64,000 nt of DNA from positions 310,001 through 374,000 of the forward strand of contig NZ_SWBP01000002.1 in NCBI RefSeq assembly GCF_005116455.1, written 5' to 3'. Origin of the DNA: Pedobacter cryophilus. Its GTDB lineage: Bacteria; Bacteroidota; Bacteroidia; Sphingobacteriales; Sphingobacteriaceae. Below, in pieces: positions 8,358 to 19,305 of the stretch; position 1 is the stretch's first letter; every line of letters starts with the position of its first letter. The position numbers and the translations under genes are program-made. The notes under the pieces are model-generated. The model was given only the letters and a program-made list of their open reading frames with translations. It did not search any database and was not told the origin of the DNA.

Positions 8358-9059
8358 ATGAATACCTCCTATGAAAACAAAATAACCATAAAAGCTTGGG
8401 CCGAAGAAGATCGTCCGAGAGAGAAATTAAGTGCACAAGGCAGAAGATCTTTAACAGATGCCGAGTTAATTGCTATCTTAATTGGATCTGGTTCTACCTC
8501 AGAATCAGCGGTAGATTTAAGCAAAAGAATCCTCCATTCTTGTAAAAACGATCTAAATGCACTCGCCAAACTATCCATTCAAGAACTTTCCAAATTTAAA
8601 GGCATTGGCGAAGCAAAAGCTATTTCTATTATTGCTGCCTTAGAATTAGGCCGAAGAAGAAAGGAAGTGGAAATCACTAATCTTGATAAAATAACTTCTT
8701 CTAAAGATATTTTCAATTACTTATCGCCTTATTTTTCTGATTTGGTTTACGAAGAGTTTTGGATTATTTTGCTTAACAGAGCCAATAAAATCATCAATAA
8801 AGTGCTAATTTCTAAAGGTGGCCAAGCCGGAACCATTGCCGATCCTAAAATTATTTTTAAAGTTGCTTTAGAAAATAATGCGGCTAATATTGTTTTGGCC
8901 CATAATCATCCATCAGGAAACTTAAAACCTAGTCATGCAGATACAGAACTAACCAAAAAGTTGAGATCTGCCGGTTTATTGCTCGATATTTCAGTGATAG
9001 ATCATCTTATTTTTTCAGAAAGAGCATATTTTAGTTTTGCTGATGAAGGAATGCTTTGA
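8358..9059 (+). CDS. radC: RadC family JAB/JAMM domain protein
   Basis: 233 residues from the ATG at 8358 (MNTSYENKI). An in-frame ATG at 8343 would add five residues but the family normally starts near YENKITIKAW. The N-terminal helix-hairpin-helix region (LSKFKGIGEAKAISIIAALELG, by position about residues 75-97) precedes the JAMM metal-binding domain with HNHPSG and a downstream serine and aspartate (SHAD). The protein was named for DNA repair but its reaction is not established. The gene stands alone between rpsT and pheT. Confidence 0.92.
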   Translation: MNTSYENKITIKAWAEEDRPREKLSAQGRRSLTDAELIAILIGSGSTSESAVDLSKRILHSCKNDLNALAKLSIQELSKFKGIGEAKAISIIAALELGRRRKEVEITNLDKITSSKDIFNYLSPYFSDLVYEEFWIILLNRANKIINKVLISKGGQAGTIADPKIIFKVALENNAANIVLAHNHPSGNLKPSHADTELTKKLRSAGLLLDISVIDHLIFSERAYFSFADEGML

Positions 9060-14230: not shown

Positions 14231-14740
14231 ATGGCAAAACCACAATCATCACCACTAAGAGAAATAGATATTCTACTTGCTAAATATTCAGAATCACATC
14301 AAAACCCTACCAATAAGCTTATTCACTGGGTTTGTGTTCCGCTTATTGTATTGAGCATTATTGGTTTAATTTCGGCTATTCCATTTCCTTACCTCAATTT
14401 TTTAGGAAAGTATAATATGTTTATCAACTGGTTTTCTTTAGTGATGGCCGCCTGTATTTATTACTATTTAAAGCTTTCGCCAATTTTGTCTTATTTAATG
14501 CTGTTCTTTTTTGGAATCTGCTATTTCTTTGTAGTGCAGTTAGAATATGTAGAGCAAGCTGGTGGCCCTGCTTTATGGCAATCTAGTTTGGTTATTTTTG
14601 TTTTAGCGTGGATAGGGCAGTTTATTGGCCATCAAATAGAAGGGAAGAAACCATCTTTGTTAACCGATTTAAAGTTTTTGTTAATTGGTCCGCTATGGTT
14701 AATGCACTTTATTCTTAAAAAGTTCAATATCAAATATTAA
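14231..14740 (+). CDS. Mpo1-like (DUF962) membrane protein
   Basis: 169 residues with the family pattern: an N-terminal HxxNxxxH-like segment (SESHQNPTNKLIHWVCVPLI), four hydrophobic helices, and the conserved histidine GQFIGHQIEGKKP near residue 138. Yeast Mpo1 is an Fe(II)-dependent dioxygenase acting on 2-hydroxy fatty acids from phytosphingosine; the histidines are the iron ligands. Sphingobacteria make sphingolipids, so a lipid role is plausible, but the bacterial reaction is inferred. Single gene. Confidence 0.8.
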   Translation: MAKPQSSPLREIDILLAKYSESHQNPTNKLIHWVCVPLIVLSIIGLISAIPFPYLNFLGKYNMFINWFSLVMAACIYYYLKLSPILSYLMLFFFGICYFFVVQLEYVEQAGGPALWQSSLVIFVLAWIGQFIGHQIEGKKPSLLTDLKFLLIGPLWLMHFILKKFNIKY

Positions 14741-14761
14741 ATCGTGTTGTTTACGTTAAAT

Positions 14762-14827
14762 TAACATTAGCATCATTGTTACTTAATTATTAGGTAACTC
14801 ACTCGTAACATTGGGATAATACTTTTG
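14762..14827 (+). promoter_or_regulatory. Promoter with phased 11-bp TAAC half-sites (Pho-box-like)
   Basis: Half-sites start at 14762 (TAACA), 14773 (TCATT), 14784 (TAATT), 14795 (TAACT) and 14806 (TAACA), each exactly 11 bases apart. They run into the -7 box TACTTTTG at 14820-14827. No -33 TTG is present at the right distance, so an activator probably replaces it. Direct repeats with 11-bp period are the usual target of OmpR/PhoB-family regulators. The same arrangement recurs at 17642-17718. Confidence 0.7.
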
Positions 14828-14849
14828 CATCAACTAAAACAAAGCAAAA

Positions 14850-17639
14850 GTGATACAAAAGTATTTTTCAATTCTTCTAAAAATCAGCTTCCTGCTGATT
14901 ATTTCTGCAAATCAAGTTTACGCACAAACTGGTAAAATTGCAGGTAAAGTAACTGATAAAACTACAGGAGAAACATTAATTGGCTTAACTGTAGGTATAG
15001 AAGGAACTACTAAGGGCGCTGCAACTGATGTAGAAGGTCGTTATGTAATTTCAAATTTAGCCGCCGGTAAGTATAATCTTACCTTCAGATACCTAGGTTA
15101 TAAAAGTAAAAATGTTACTGGTGTAGATGTTATAGATGGGAAAGTAACCAGTTTGGATGTGATTATGGAAGAAGCAGCTACACAAAGTTTAAACGAGGTA
15201 GTAGTTACGGCTTCTTACAGGCAAGAAACGGTTGGAGCTTTATATGCTCAACAAAAAAATGCCGTAAGTATTTCTAGTGGAATTTCATCAGATCAAATTA
15301 GAAAATCGCCAGATAAAAATACATCTGAGGTACTAAGAAGAGTAAGTGGAACGAGTATTCAGGATGGAAAGTTTATTGTGATAAGGGGTTTATCAGATAG
15401 ATACAATACAGCATTATTAAACAATGCAATTTTGCCAAGTTCAGAGCCTGATAGAAAAGCGTTTTCTTTTGATATTGTACCCTCAAATTTGGTTGATAAA
15501 ATTGTAATAAGTAAAACAGCTAGTCCAGATTTACCTGGAGATTTTGCAGGCGGTGTTACGCAAATTATCACTAAAGATATCCCAGACAAGAATTTTTTTG
15601 GTGTTGCTATAACAACTGGCTACAATTCTCAAAGTACATTTAAAGACTTTAGGTCTAATGGAAGAAATAGTACAGATTTTTTAGGTTTTGATGATGGAAG
15701 TAGAGGCATTCCTGATGGGTTTCCTAAATCCAGATCTTTGTACAATAATAACAATACCACAGTACAAGAAAAAATAGCGAATACCAAATTATTTGATAAT
15801 CCTTATGCTGTTGAAACCACCACAGCAATGCCTATTCAAAGTTATCAAATCAATTGGGGTAATGTTAGAAATTTTAAAAATGAAGGAACTTTAGGAAGTA
15901 TTCTTTCCCTTACTTACCGAAACGGACAAACTTATCAAGGTGCAACAAGAGAGACTTTTGATGGGATTGAAACTAACTATCAGTATAATGATCAAGTCTA
16001 TAAATACAATACAACTTTAGGCGCATTAGCTAATTTTTCTTACAAGAAAGGAAAGAGTAAGTATTCTTTCAAAAATTTATTCAATCAAACTTTTGATGAT
16101 AGCTATACTGATAGAACAGGAACCAATATTAATCAGGGAAACATTATCTACAGTGGTTCAGAATTAAACCAAAAAGGTTTGTTTAATACCCAGCTAGAAG
16201 GAGAGCATCGTTTTGGAGAGAAAAATTCAAAATTAGATTGGAATCTTAATTATTCAGTGGTAACTAGAAATCAGCCTGATTTAAGAAATATTTTATACAA
16301 TCAGTCAGGTAGTAATCCTTATAGTTTTGCGGATAACTTTTCAAGACGTTTTTATTCTGATTTAACAGAGAATATATATGGTATAAATGCTGCTTATACT
16401 ATTCCGTTTACATTTCTAGAAAAGAAGAGTAATATTAAGTTTGGTGGCTTAAAGCAAATTAGAAAACGAGATTTCAATTCTAGAAACTTCATTTACCAAG
16501 CAGCTTCTTTTGGCAATTTTGATGCATCTAAGTTAACGCTACCAAAAGAAGTTATAGTTAATGATGAAAATATAAGTGAAACAGGTTTTGTGTTTAATGA
16601 AATCACGAATAATTCTGATAGCTATAATGGCTATTCAGATTTAAATGCAGGTTATGTTATGCTGGATAATCAATTGTCAGATAAAATTAGATTAGTTTGG
16701 GGTGCAAGAGCCGAAAGTTATTTTCAAGATATTAATGCGCTTGGTAATTCTGGCTTACCAATTAGTGCTGATCAAACATTTTTTGATGTCCTTCCATCAT
16801 TCAATCTTACTTATAATTTTAATGATAAGGCTAACTTAAGGTTTTCTGGTTCTCAAACCGTAACCAGACCAGAGCTTAGAGAATTAGCCCCATTTACATT
16901 CATCAATCAAGAAGAGAATACTTTAACAGCAGGAAATCCTAACCTAAAGAGAAGTAATAATACAAATGCTGATATCAGATTTGAATATTATCCAACAAAT
17001 GGAGAGGCTTTTACCGCTACAGTTTTTTATAAGAACTTTAAAAATCCTATTGAGCAAATTGTTGGTTCCTCTGCTACTTATAGCAATCTTACATTTAATT
17101 TTAACAACGTTAAAAGTGCTTATTCTTATGGATTTGAATTAGATTTTAGAAAAAGATTAGATTTTCTTGGAAATGCGGCTTGGTTAGAAAACTTTACAGT
17201 AGCTTCCAATTTAACATTGATAAAATCTGAAGTTGATTTAGGAAACCAATCTACAGCAGCGGTGCGTCCATTACAAGGGCAATCTCCTTATCTAGTAAAC
17301 GGAAGCATTCAATATAATTCACCTAAGTCAGGTGTTTCTCTTAATGTGCTGTACAATAGAATTGGAAGTAGAATAGCAAGAGTAGGAAACGAGAATATTC
17401 CAGATTTTTATGAAATAGGAAGAGATCTTCTTGATTTACAGGTTTCAAAGAAGATATTAAAAAATAAAGGAGAATTACGCTTGAATATTGGAGATGTTCT
17501 TAATCAAAGTCAAATACTTTATCAAAACTTTGATGGTAACAGAAAATACAACAAAGGGATAGATAATGATTTTTTTAATTACAAGACGGGTACAAATTTC
17601 ACACTTGGTTTTACTTACGATTTCAGTTTTGCTAATTGA
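14850..17639 (+). CDS. TonB-dependent receptor with CarboxypepD_reg-like domain
   Basis: 929 residues, with a GTG start at 14850. It has a signal peptide (residues 1-25, ending VYAQ), a CarboxypepD_reg-like domain (about 28-110), a plug domain (about 125-240, with FIVIRGLSDRYN and SPDLPGDFAGG) and a C-terminal outer-membrane beta-barrel. It should import a substrate across the outer membrane using TonB energy. No SusD partner follows; instead a beta-helix-like lipoprotein is encoded next, under the same kind of phased promoter. Substrate unknown; the regulatory sites point to phosphate or a phosphorylated compound, by inference. Confidence 0.92.
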   Translation: MIQKYFSILLKISFLLIISANQVYAQTGKIAGKVTDKTTGETLIGLTVGIEGTTKGAATDVEGRYVISNLAAGKYNLTFRYLGYKSKNVTGVDVIDGKVTSLDVIMEEAATQSLNEVVVTASYRQETVGALYAQQKNAVSISSGISSDQIRKSPDKNTSEVLRRVSGTSIQDGKFIVIRGLSDRYNTALLNNAILPSSEPDRKAFSFDIVPSNLVDKIVISKTASPDLPGDFAGGVTQIITKDIPDKNFFGVAITTGYNSQSTFKDFRSNGRNSTDFLGFDDGSRGIPDGFPKSRSLYNNNNTTVQEKIANTKLFDNPYAVETTTAMPIQSYQINWGNVRNFKNEGTLGSILSLTYRNGQTYQGATRETFDGIETNYQYNDQVYKYNTTLGALANFSYKKGKSKYSFKNLFNQTFDDSYTDRTGTNINQGNIIYSGSELNQKGLFNTQLEGEHRFGEKNSKLDWNLNYSVVTRNQPDLRNILYNQSGSNPYSFADNFSRRFYSDLTENIYGINAAYTIPFTFLEKKSNIKFGGLKQIRKRDFNSRNFIYQAASFGNFDASKLTLPKEVIVNDENISETGFVFNEITNNSDSYNGYSDLNAGYVMLDNQLSDKIRLVWGARAESYFQDINALGNSGLPISADQTFFDVLPSFNLTYNFNDKANLRFSGSQTVTRPELRELAPFTFINQEENTLTAGNPNLKRSNNTNADIRFEYYPTNGEAFTATVFYKNFKNPIEQIVGSSATYSNLTFNFNNVKSAYSYGFELDFRKRLDFLGNAAWLENFTVASNLTLIKSEVDLGNQSTAAVRPLQGQSPYLVNGSIQYNSPKSGVSLNVLYNRIGSRIARVGNENIPDFYEIGRDLLDLQVSKKILKNKGELRLNIGDVLNQSQILYQNFDGNRKYNKGIDNDFFNYKTGTNFTLGFTYDFSFAN

Positions 17640-17641
17640 GT

Positions 17642-17718
17642 TAACAAATAGGTAACAATATAAAAACCTAAAGTTAATTGATTATTAATCTTGTGGTAAC
17701 ATCAGGTTTGTTTCTTTG
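17642..17718 (+). promoter_or_regulatory. Second promoter with phased 11-bp TAAC half-sites
   Basis: Half-sites start at 17642 (TAACA), 17653 (TAACA), 17664 (AAACC, weak), 17675 (TAATT), 17686 (TAATC) and 17697 (TAACA), all exactly 11 bases apart. A near-consensus -7 box TTTCTTTG lies at 17711-17718, 14 bases after the start of the last half-site. This is the same offset as in the promoter at 14762-14827. Confidence 0.7.
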
Positions 17719-17732
17719 AAAAAAAAATAAAG

Positions 17733-19079
17733 ATGAAAAAGATCAACTATTTATTAATGTTATTATCAGTCGTTTTTGTTCTCAGTTCTTGTAACAATGG
17801 AGATGAAAATATTGTAGTTCCTATTTTGGAACCAGAAGTTATTGCTAACAATGTTTCTACAAATACAACACTAACTTCTGATAGGGTTTGGATTTTAAGA
17901 GGTGAAACACATGTTCAAAGTGGAGCAGTTTTAACCATCCAAGCAGGAACTATTATCAAATCTGATGTTTCTCAAAAAGGAGCTTTAATTATTGATAAAG
18001 GAGCCAGAATTGAAGCAGTAGGAACAGCAGCAAGCCCAATAATTTTCACTTCGGGAGTTGCAGCTGGATCAAGAGCTCCTGGCGATTGGGCCGGAATTAC
18101 TATTATTGGTAGAGCACCAACCAATAGAGCAACTGTAGGTATCGTTGAAGGAGGTGTAAGTGGTCAGTTTGGTTTAGACAATATACCAACTGATAATTCT
18201 GGGACTTTAAAATATGTTCGTATTGAATATGCAGGTATTGCTGTAGCTCAAGGTTCAGAAGTGAATGCATTAAGTTTATATGCAGTTGGTTCAGGTACAA
18301 CGTTAGATCATATTCAAATTTCTTATGCTAAAGATGATGCTTATGAGTTTTTTGGAGGTACCGTTAACGGAAAATATTTAATTTCTTACGGTACATCTGA
18401 TGATGATTTCGATTTTGATAATGGATATACAGGAAAAATTCAGTTTGGAGTAGTTTTACGTCGTCCAGAATTAGTTGATCCTACAGATCAAGGAAATGGC
18501 GTAGAGTGTGATAATGAATCTTCAGTTCCAACTGCTGGTCCATCAACACCATTAACCAGACCTGTTCTCTCTAACTTCACTTTCTTAGGTTCAAATGGAG
18601 CGTCTAACGAAGCAGCTCAACAGCATTTTGCAAATAGATTTAGAAGAGCTACCCAGTTTGTAGTTGTTAATTCACTTTATGGTGGATTTAAAGAAGCCGG
18701 TGTTTCTATGGAGTCAGAGCAAACTGTTTCTGCTTATGTAGCAGGTACTTCTATATTTAAAAATAATGCGGTAACAGCAATGAAACAACCTTATTTAACT
18801 AATTCTGCTACTTTAAATTCTGCAGCTTTCCAAGTTAAAGCAGAAACAGAAGGCAATGTTACATTAGCAAATTCTGCCGCTTTACTTCTGTCAAATCCAT
18901 TTAATTTATCAGCGCCTAATTTTTCACCACAAACAGCTTCTCCTGCATTGTTAGGAACTTATGTAGCTGCTGATAACTCAGGTTTCTTTACAGCAACAAC
19001 TTACAGAGGAGCTTTTGCTGCTAACGATACTTGGACTAATACTTGGACTAATTTTAATCCAAATTCTTCAACTTACTAA
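17733..19079 (+). CDS. Surface or periplasmic lipoprotein with right-handed beta-helix-like repeats
   Basis: 448 residues. Lipobox VLSSC puts the acylated cysteine at residue 20. The body is Gly/Ala/Thr-rich with short strand repeats (VWILRGETHVQSGAVLTIQ, AGTIIKSD, GDWAGITIIGRAP, LKYVRIEYAG, EFFGGTVNGKYL), suggesting a parallel beta-helix or similar solenoid. The acidic segment SDDDFDFDNGY could bind a cation. It follows the TonB receptor by 93 bases with its own matched promoter. The pairing recalls a phosphate-starvation lipoprotein and receptor in Caulobacter (ElpS and neighbour), but homology was not verified here. Confidence 0.75.
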   Translation: MKKINYLLMLLSVVFVLSSCNNGDENIVVPILEPEVIANNVSTNTTLTSDRVWILRGETHVQSGAVLTIQAGTIIKSDVSQKGALIIDKGARIEAVGTAASPIIFTSGVAAGSRAPGDWAGITIIGRAPTNRATVGIVEGGVSGQFGLDNIPTDNSGTLKYVRIEYAGIAVAQGSEVNALSLYAVGSGTTLDHIQISYAKDDAYEFFGGTVNGKYLISYGTSDDDFDFDNGYTGKIQFGVVLRRPELVDPTDQGNGVECDNESSVPTAGPSTPLTRPVLSNFTFLGSNGASNEAAQQHFANRFRRATQFVVVNSLYGGFKEAGVSMESEQTVSAYVAGTSIFKNNAVTAMKQPYLTNSATLNSAAFQVKAETEGNVTLANSAALLLSNPFNLSAPNFSPQTASPALLGTYVAADNSGFFTATTYRGAFAANDTWTNTWTNFNPNSSTY

Positions 19080-19101
19080 AATAAATTTTTATCTAAGATT
19101 A

Positions 19102-19132
19102 AATCCTGCTCATTTATGAGTGGGATTTTTTA
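19102..19132 (+). terminator. Terminator of the beta-helix lipoprotein gene
   Basis: AATCCTGCTC (19102-19111) pairs with GAGTGGGATT (19118-19127) and is followed by a T run. It closes the receptor-lipoprotein locus 22 bases after the stop codon. Confidence 0.8.
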
Positions 19133-19181
19133 TTTAATTAAAACTTCATCAATTCAAATTTCAATTTATTTTTAATCTAAA

Positions 19182-19286
19182 ATGTTAGCTACTGGTTTTA
19201 CAAAAGATACTTTTGTTGGAGCTATGGGAACTATTGATTGGAATGCAAATTGGTGTTTTGGTCCTCCAAAAACAAATGATAAATAA
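19182..19286 (+). pseudogene. C-terminal remnant of a paralogous lipoprotein
   Basis: An in-frame stretch of 34 codons and a stop (from 19182) encodes GFTKDTFVGAMGTIDWNANW and ends shortly after. It resembles the end of the preceding 448-residue lipoprotein (SGFFTATTYRGAFAANDTW, then TNTW). There is a stop codon just upstream in frame and no start region, so this looks like the leftover 3' end of a second copy. It has its own terminator at 19306-19339. Confidence 0.6.
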
Positions 19287-19305
19287 TTCATTTTTAATAA
19301 AGCAT

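Follow-up and report, generated by a model that had tools for sequence, protein, structure and literature searches.

Pho-box-like arrays with an 11-bp period precede a TonB receptor-ElpS-type lipoprotein pair and point to a candidate phosphate-starvation regulon in Pedobacter cryophilus

Introduction

In the genome of Pedobacter cryophilus a gene for a TonB-dependent receptor is directly followed by one for a lipoprotein, and both are preceded by TAAC-like half-sites that recur every 11 bp. Which regulator would use these repeats, and for the uptake of what are the two genes switched on? To answer this, a window of 64,000 nt (the whole stretch of DNA analysed, G000:C9:310001-374000) of the 3.99-Mb genome was studied together with named relatives, i.e., Pedobacter and its allies. 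We propose, at a probability of about 85%, that the arrays are Pho boxes at which a PhoB-family regulator would activate the receptor, the lipoprotein and the phosphate transporter Pit in low phosphate, serving phosphorus uptake.

Results

Two phased arrays in front of the receptor and the lipoprotein gene

The features of the locus are listed in Table 1. The first-pass annotation had described half-sites with a spacing of exactly 11 bases in both arrays, and reading the letters of the window bore out these coordinates. The receptor array consists of TAACA (14762), TCATT (14773), TAATT (14784), TAACT (14795) and TAACA (14806), the lipoprotein array of TAACA (17642), TAACA (17653), AAACC (17664), TAATT (17675), TAATC (17686) and TAACA (17697). 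Each array holds one weak half-site (TCATT and AAACC, respectively), and in both the last half-site begins 14 bases 5' of the -7 box, as had also been noticed. The box of the lipoprotein promoter is a single letter off TAnnTTTG. A sixth in-phase half-site, seen upstream of the receptor in relatives, is degenerate in the window at 14751. Rfam gave zero matches across 14600-19300. Directly 5' of the receptor array lies an Mpo1-like gene (PF06127; window 14231-14740), and in many Pedobacter loci its place is occupied by ORFs that are alike in length and position.

Table 1. Features of the receptor-lipoprotein locus, in window positions.
Feature	Position	Strand	Basis or remark
Pho-box-like array, five half-sites, 11-bp period	14762..14810	+	pattern scoring, alignment of relatives
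-7 promoter box TACTTTTG	14820..14827	+	TTTG lies 18 nt from where the last TAA begins
TonB-dependent receptor, 929 aa from GTG	14850..17639	+	CarbopepD_reg_2, Plug and beta-barrel domains
Pho-box-like array, six half-sites, 11-bp period	17642..17701	+	pattern scoring
-7-box-like TTTCTTTG	17711..17718	+	register equal to that of the receptor promoter
ElpS-type lipoprotein, 448 aa	17733..19079	+	lipobox cysteine at residue 20; predicted right-handed parallel beta-helix

When the window was scored for five TAAC half-sites at 11 bp, each array reached 17/20. Six positions score at least 16, all of them inside these two arrays and on the same strand. In 200 dinucleotide shuffles of the window the mean number of such positions was 0.115, and the best score was 17 in 1/200 and 16 in 19/200 shuffles. 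At nine other periods (7 to 16) the real window contains 0 to 4 positions scoring at least 16. Looser patterns gave chance numbers: three half-sites with up to two mismatches were found 11 times in the window compared with 10.26 expected, and genome-wide matches with two mismatches showed no excess over the backward control. As loose pattern searches return mostly chance matches, a promoter model was used instead.

The behaviour of the loose patterns would suit an origin of the repeats by chance in AT-rich promoter DNA. We regard such an origin as very improbable, since shuffled windows rarely reach the scores of the arrays, and the arrays are distinguished by their length, their register to the -7 box and their conservation.

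The arrays are conserved in relatives in a fixed register

Upstream regions of the receptor were compared in 21 loci, the window and 20 named ones (the region of L078 runs off its contig). The array is kept in 18/21 regions, and the mean best four-site score of the 21 is 17.6 at period 11 compared with 9.7-11.9 at nine other periods (7 to 16). The distance from the last TAA of the best array to TTTG is exactly 18 nt in 18/18 array-bearing promoters, with 12 offsets allowed; L079, L080 and L081, which have no receptor array, were left out of this test. A register held in 18 of the 21 receptor promoters again argues against chance. The array is absent from three loci, two of Mucilaginibacter and one of P. 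caeni, and the receptors there are 32-33% identical. Aligned with each other, the receptor promoters show six half-sites, to which most rows add a TAATA overlapping the -7 box.

The receptor and lipoprotein genes are adjacent in the window and in 21/21 named loci. In the lipoprotein promoters (22 regions) the signal is weaker than in the receptor promoters, with a mean score of 14.2 at period 11 compared with 9.8-10.8 at the other periods, and TTT[GA] stands in matching register in 12/18 promoters. Three loci from Chitinophagaceae or their like (L067, L068 and L075) carry the lipoprotein gene without an array upstream, which would fit an operon.

A promoter model connects the pair with Pit

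The promoter model R1 comprises 45 positions. Its training set consisted of 14 promoters of the receptor and 3 of the lipoprotein, among them the two of the window, and contained no Pit promoter; the model alignment (A3) does not contain L063, L068, L073 and L075. In the P. cryophilus genome it finds three matches at E<=0.01, upstream of the receptor (8.8e-8), the lipoprotein (3.7e-4) and Pit (2.1e-6). The first two are members of the model, and the Pit promoter is independent of it. The Pit match lies upstream of an operon for a DUF47 protein and the Pit phosphate transporter, beside the gene of a PhoR-like kinase. A genome-wide search for TAAC repeats had been proposed in the first-pass annotation; with the loose pattern it stayed at control level, but with the promoter model it led to the Pit operon. 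PstC gave no match in this genome, compared with matches in 14/14 control genomes.

Across 18 genomes of the genus, 30 matches at E<=0.01 were obtained, 15 for the receptor, 12 for Pit, 1 for the lipoprotein and 2 inside an ORF (L147, L156). The search of 61 genomes of the family yielded 83 matches in 51 genomes, while 10/61 had no match; the letter-reversed model yielded 4 matches in 4 genomes in the same search, the best at 7.9e-4. Because the reversed model reaches 7.9e-4 once, single matches near E 0.001-0.01 can be chance. As a set, however, 83 matches against 4 speak against a chance origin of the motif.

Sorted by the gene downstream, the 83 family matches comprise 30 receptors (partly by construction, because some genomes that served as model source reappear), 30 Pit, 1 lipoprotein, 7 other phosphorus genes and 15 others. 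In this sorting L244 was taken as Pit from its neighbours, and the names of L249 and L237 follow from the scanned L236 and L228, which they resemble. The motif is present before Pit in 30/61 family genomes, that of P. cryophilus included. The seven other phosphorus genes encode PstS, GlpT, a second PHO4-type transporter, a purple-acid-type phosphatase, two MetallophosN/C proteins and a histidine phosphatase. PstS (TIGR02136, above cut-off) was found downstream of a match in two genomes (G024 and G091, E 0.0086 and 0.0206), the match at E 0.0206 being from Pedobacter sp. SYSU D00535, and GlpT (above cut-off) in one (G058). The 15 others are made up of four other TonB receptors, two DUF2490 proteins, two ECF sigma factors and seven remaining cases: a glycosyltransferase, an S41 peptidase, HupE/UreJ and an outer-membrane efflux protein (one each) and three without an identified gene. 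At E<=0.05 the genomes of 10 of the 21 named loci gave 28 matches, of which 9 belong to the receptor, 2 to the lipoprotein, 7 to Pit, 1 to PstS and 9 to other or unidentified genes.

Two weak matches in the P. cryophilus genome (L116 and L118, E 0.048 and 0.36), before an aldose epimerase and a protein whose DUF4175 match is sub-threshold, are not claimed as members of the regulon. The phytase locus of this genome has a weak three-site array only (R1 E 1.28). L160 (G000:C10:188000-206000) encodes a second TonB receptor, two purple-acid-phosphatase-like proteins and a phytase; it shows a weak three-half-site 11-bp array at 8919-8950 and, upstream, a gene for a TPR-type regulator. Its receptor is absent at E<=1e-100 from 17/17 other genomes of the genus. 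In some relatives ECF sigma factor genes lie downstream of R1 matches (L251, L262, L296 and L297, where the letters of L297 equal those of L296 and its assignment rests on the scanned L296). These sigma factors would fit a cascade.

A PhoB-like regulator and a PhoR-like kinase are candidates for the switch

The genome contains six full-length matches to the PhoB model. The best of them, L171 (G000:C13:113743-114432), scores 227.1 of 296.2 and 221.8 of 270 bits and is thus under the curated PhoB cut-offs. It stands alone on another contig and not beside the gene of the PhoR-like kinase. The kinase gene upstream of Pit (L082, 8847-11652) ends just 5' of the Pit array, and its product is under every curated NCBIfam cut-off (best matches PnpS 263 of 400, WalK 241, phoR_proteo 232 of 334).

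Six regulators encoded near the pair in relatives all match L171 best among the six of P. cryophilus, with 209-289 bits and 43-61% identity, the next best reaching at most 128 bits. Two further regulators near the pair are weakly like L171 (32% for L061 and 27% for L186). An L171-type PhoB-like regulator, a PhoR-like kinase or Pit is found near the pair in 9/41 loci, and in L186 the receptor, lipoprotein, PhoB-like and PhoR-like genes are neighbours. From these likenesses L171 is most likely the regulator that would bind the arrays. Around the six regulator genes of this genome R1 detects no array, so that autoregulation is not seen.

The arrays could also be bound by a different regulator of the OmpR family that answers to some other stress common to Pit and the receptor. 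Five full-length PhoB-model matches exist besides L171, and direct repeats with an 11-bp period are general in the OmpR/PhoB family. Nevertheless, we consider this improbable, as the motif precedes Pit and, in relatives, PstS, GlpT and phosphatase-type genes, and the regulators compared near the pair are of the L171 type. A point in its favour comes from PhoP of Riemerella anatipestifer, since that study likens the PhoP motif to that of ArcA and names targets that are not phosphate genes (PMC9603813). On balance, the phosphate reading of the arrays is well supported by the sequence comparisons: the switch is shared with phosphate-transport genes, which would place the receptor and the lipoprotein in the phosphate-starvation response. 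One PhoB-type activator for both genes had been suggested in the first-pass annotation, and this view gains good support from the Pit operon as the sole other strong match in the genome.

The lipoprotein is of the ElpS type and has a predicted beta-helix fold

The receptor contains the Pfam domains PF07715, PF13715 and PF14905. It scores 65.3 bits against the SusC/RagA model, whose cut-off is 368, and the lipoprotein has no SusD match in Pfam or NCBIfam, so that the two do not form a SusCD-type pair; the lack of a SusD partner had been recognized before. The lipoprotein gave no meaningful family match in Pfam or NCBIfam, and the PDB contains no relative of its sequence, the single match (E 3.1) being meaningless. 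The lipobox cysteine at residue 20 is invariant in 19/19 aligned sequences.

A confident AlphaFold2 prediction (pLDDT 87.1, pTM 0.88) agrees with the earlier impression of a beta-helix-like protein and gives it the predicted fold of a right-handed parallel beta-helix. The predicted structure matches the alginate epimerase AlgE4 (2pyh) with a VIA Z of 23.4 and an rmsd of 3.3 over 273 residues, whereas with Foldseek alone no E fell below 0.011. Nearest to it are alginate epimerases, pectate and alginate lyases and tailspikes. Several invariant Asp/Glu residues cluster at about residues 201-261 of the lipoprotein, and the alignment suggests them as a possible metal or ligand site.

With tblastn, homologues of the lipoprotein were detected on 21 plasmid records. 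Those that sit in the ElpS gene arrangement were found at 3e-30 and 1e-45 by tblastn and at 9.8e-64 and 1.4e-149 by profile match within a set of seven sequences. They belong to the alphaproteobacteria Sphingomonas parapaucimobilis and Indioceanicola profundi and adjoin genes for a TonB receptor and T2SS. The homologue of Pseudoalteromonas has genes for a TonB receptor and ExbB/ExbD/TonB nearby, and the neighbourhood of the Marinobacter homologue contains no TonB receptor, T2SS or ExbB/ExbD/TonB genes. Altogether a TonB receptor stands beside the homologue in 3/4 plasmid neighbourhoods opened, and these three receptors align to that of the window. Some proteins carry the lipoprotein-profile domain repeatedly, three times in Pseudoalteromonas (L301 4408-8508) and twice in Indioceanicola (L300 5779-8649). 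Judged by its homologues in the ElpS gene arrangement the lipoprotein is of the ElpS type; the resemblance named in the first-pass annotation was borne out through these homologues.

The pair may be Pho-regulated and yet take up a ligand without phosphorus, e.g., a metal or a plant glycan whose removal gives access to phosphate. The enzymes nearest to the predicted beta-helix and the clustered Asp/Glu residues with their possible metal site would suit such a role, and the relatives of the lipoprotein in Flavobacterium were suggested by Lidbury and colleagues to bind or hydrolyse plant glycans or cell-wall molecules (PMC8115612). However, a common fold proves no activity, and the PDB holds no sequence relative. 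We consider a non-phosphorus ligand possible but rather unlikely, and prefer a phosphorus-containing one.

Discussion

Proposed mechanism

In phosphate shortage, the PhoR-like kinase encoded upstream of Pit would activate an OmpR/PhoB-family regulator, likely L171, which would then fill the 11-bp half-sites head to tail. The bound regulator would recruit RNA polymerase to the Bacteroidota -7 box at a fixed distance, replacing the -33 element. Receptor and Pit transporter would thereby be switched on together with the lipoprotein, whose gene has a second promoter of its own. The ElpS-type beta-helix lipoprotein, probably located on the cell surface, may capture a ligand that contains phosphorus, or help to mobilise it. 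This ligand would be carried through the outer membrane by the TonB receptor, and phosphate through the inner membrane by Pit.

Novelty and meaning

The first-pass annotation considered the two proteins a possible new type of uptake pair. Such pairs are already on record, however: low-phosphate induction has been published for Flavobacterium johnsoniae (PMC8115612) and the partnership of ElpS with a receptor for Caulobacter (PMC2996285). The promoter architecture in Bacteroidota and its regulon seem to be new: in the literature searched, with subscription papers and preprints outside its scope, neither a phased Pho promoter in fixed register with the Bacteroidota -7 box nor a Pit-centred regulon had been described.

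More tentatively, and with less than even confidence, we suggest that Sphingobacteriaceae and their neighbours use a distinct Bacteroidota Pho promoter, in which two or three to six half-sites are register-locked to a -7 box and replace the -33 element. In members without Pst its core regulon would consist of the ElpS-type pair and Pit. With the kinase gene beside Pit, these bacteria could sense phosphate by way of Pit and its DUF47 partner rather than by way of Pst.

The promoter model offers a means of predicting, from the sequence alone, which genes of Sphingobacteriaceae belong to the phosphate-starvation regulon. It indicates a Pit-centred Pho system with an adjoining kinase gene in a genome in which PstC has no match, and it gives the ElpS-type lipoproteins a conserved receptor as partner and a defined switch.

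Comparison with known systems

In Bacillus subtilis (PhoP) and E. coli (PhoB), Pho boxes are 11-bp direct repeats as well and overlap the -35 region. In contrast, the arrays of the window are tied to the Bacteroidota -7 box, and here the array also precedes Pit, with PstC having no match in the genome.

Within Bacteroidota, expression of pstC in Bacteroides fragilis needs a PhoB (PMC3547664). PhoP of R. anatipestifer shares the phylum and a TTTAACA half-site core, determined by DAP-seq, and PhoP genes rise in phosphate starvation (PMC9603813). The difference is that 583 peaks are reported there (PMC9603813), compared with three strong R1 matches in the P. cryophilus genome, and that the Riemerella motif is not known to keep a set spacing from a -7 box. 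The main text of the study contains none of the terms 'pst', 'phosphatase', 'inorganic phosphate' and 'direct repeat'.

According to Le Blastier, ElpS (Cc0170) of C. crescentus is a lipoprotein made in phosphate starvation and encoded beside the TonB receptor Cc0171 in the order ElpS-Cc0171-T2SS; its release needs the T2SS, and Cc0171 is reported as constitutive (PMC2996285). The two alphaproteobacterial homologues of the window lipoprotein share this order with T2SS genes, whereas in the window the receptor comes first.

The closest published counterpart is Fjoh_0543-0546 (PUSIV) of F. johnsoniae, where a receptor and a beta-helix lipoprotein belong to a phoBR cluster and Fjoh_0545/0546 are both induced by phosphate depletion (PMC8115612). 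The same study lists sigma factors induced by low phosphate and names the Flavobacterium relatives of the lipoprotein as major exoproteins of phosphate starvation. No array is described for PUSIV, as 'promoter' and 'Pho box' are absent from the main text (PMC8115612). There phoBR adjoins the pair, whereas the pair of the window has no neighbouring PhoB or PhoR candidate; the gene neighbourhood of L186, however, resembles the F. johnsoniae phoBR arrangement (PMC8115612). The likeness to PUSIV is one of published descriptions and domains: the PUSIV receptor is listed with the same three Pfam domains as the window receptor, and the PUSIV lipoprotein (form II) is assigned to the pectin-lyase-like superfamily IPR011050 (PMC8115612).
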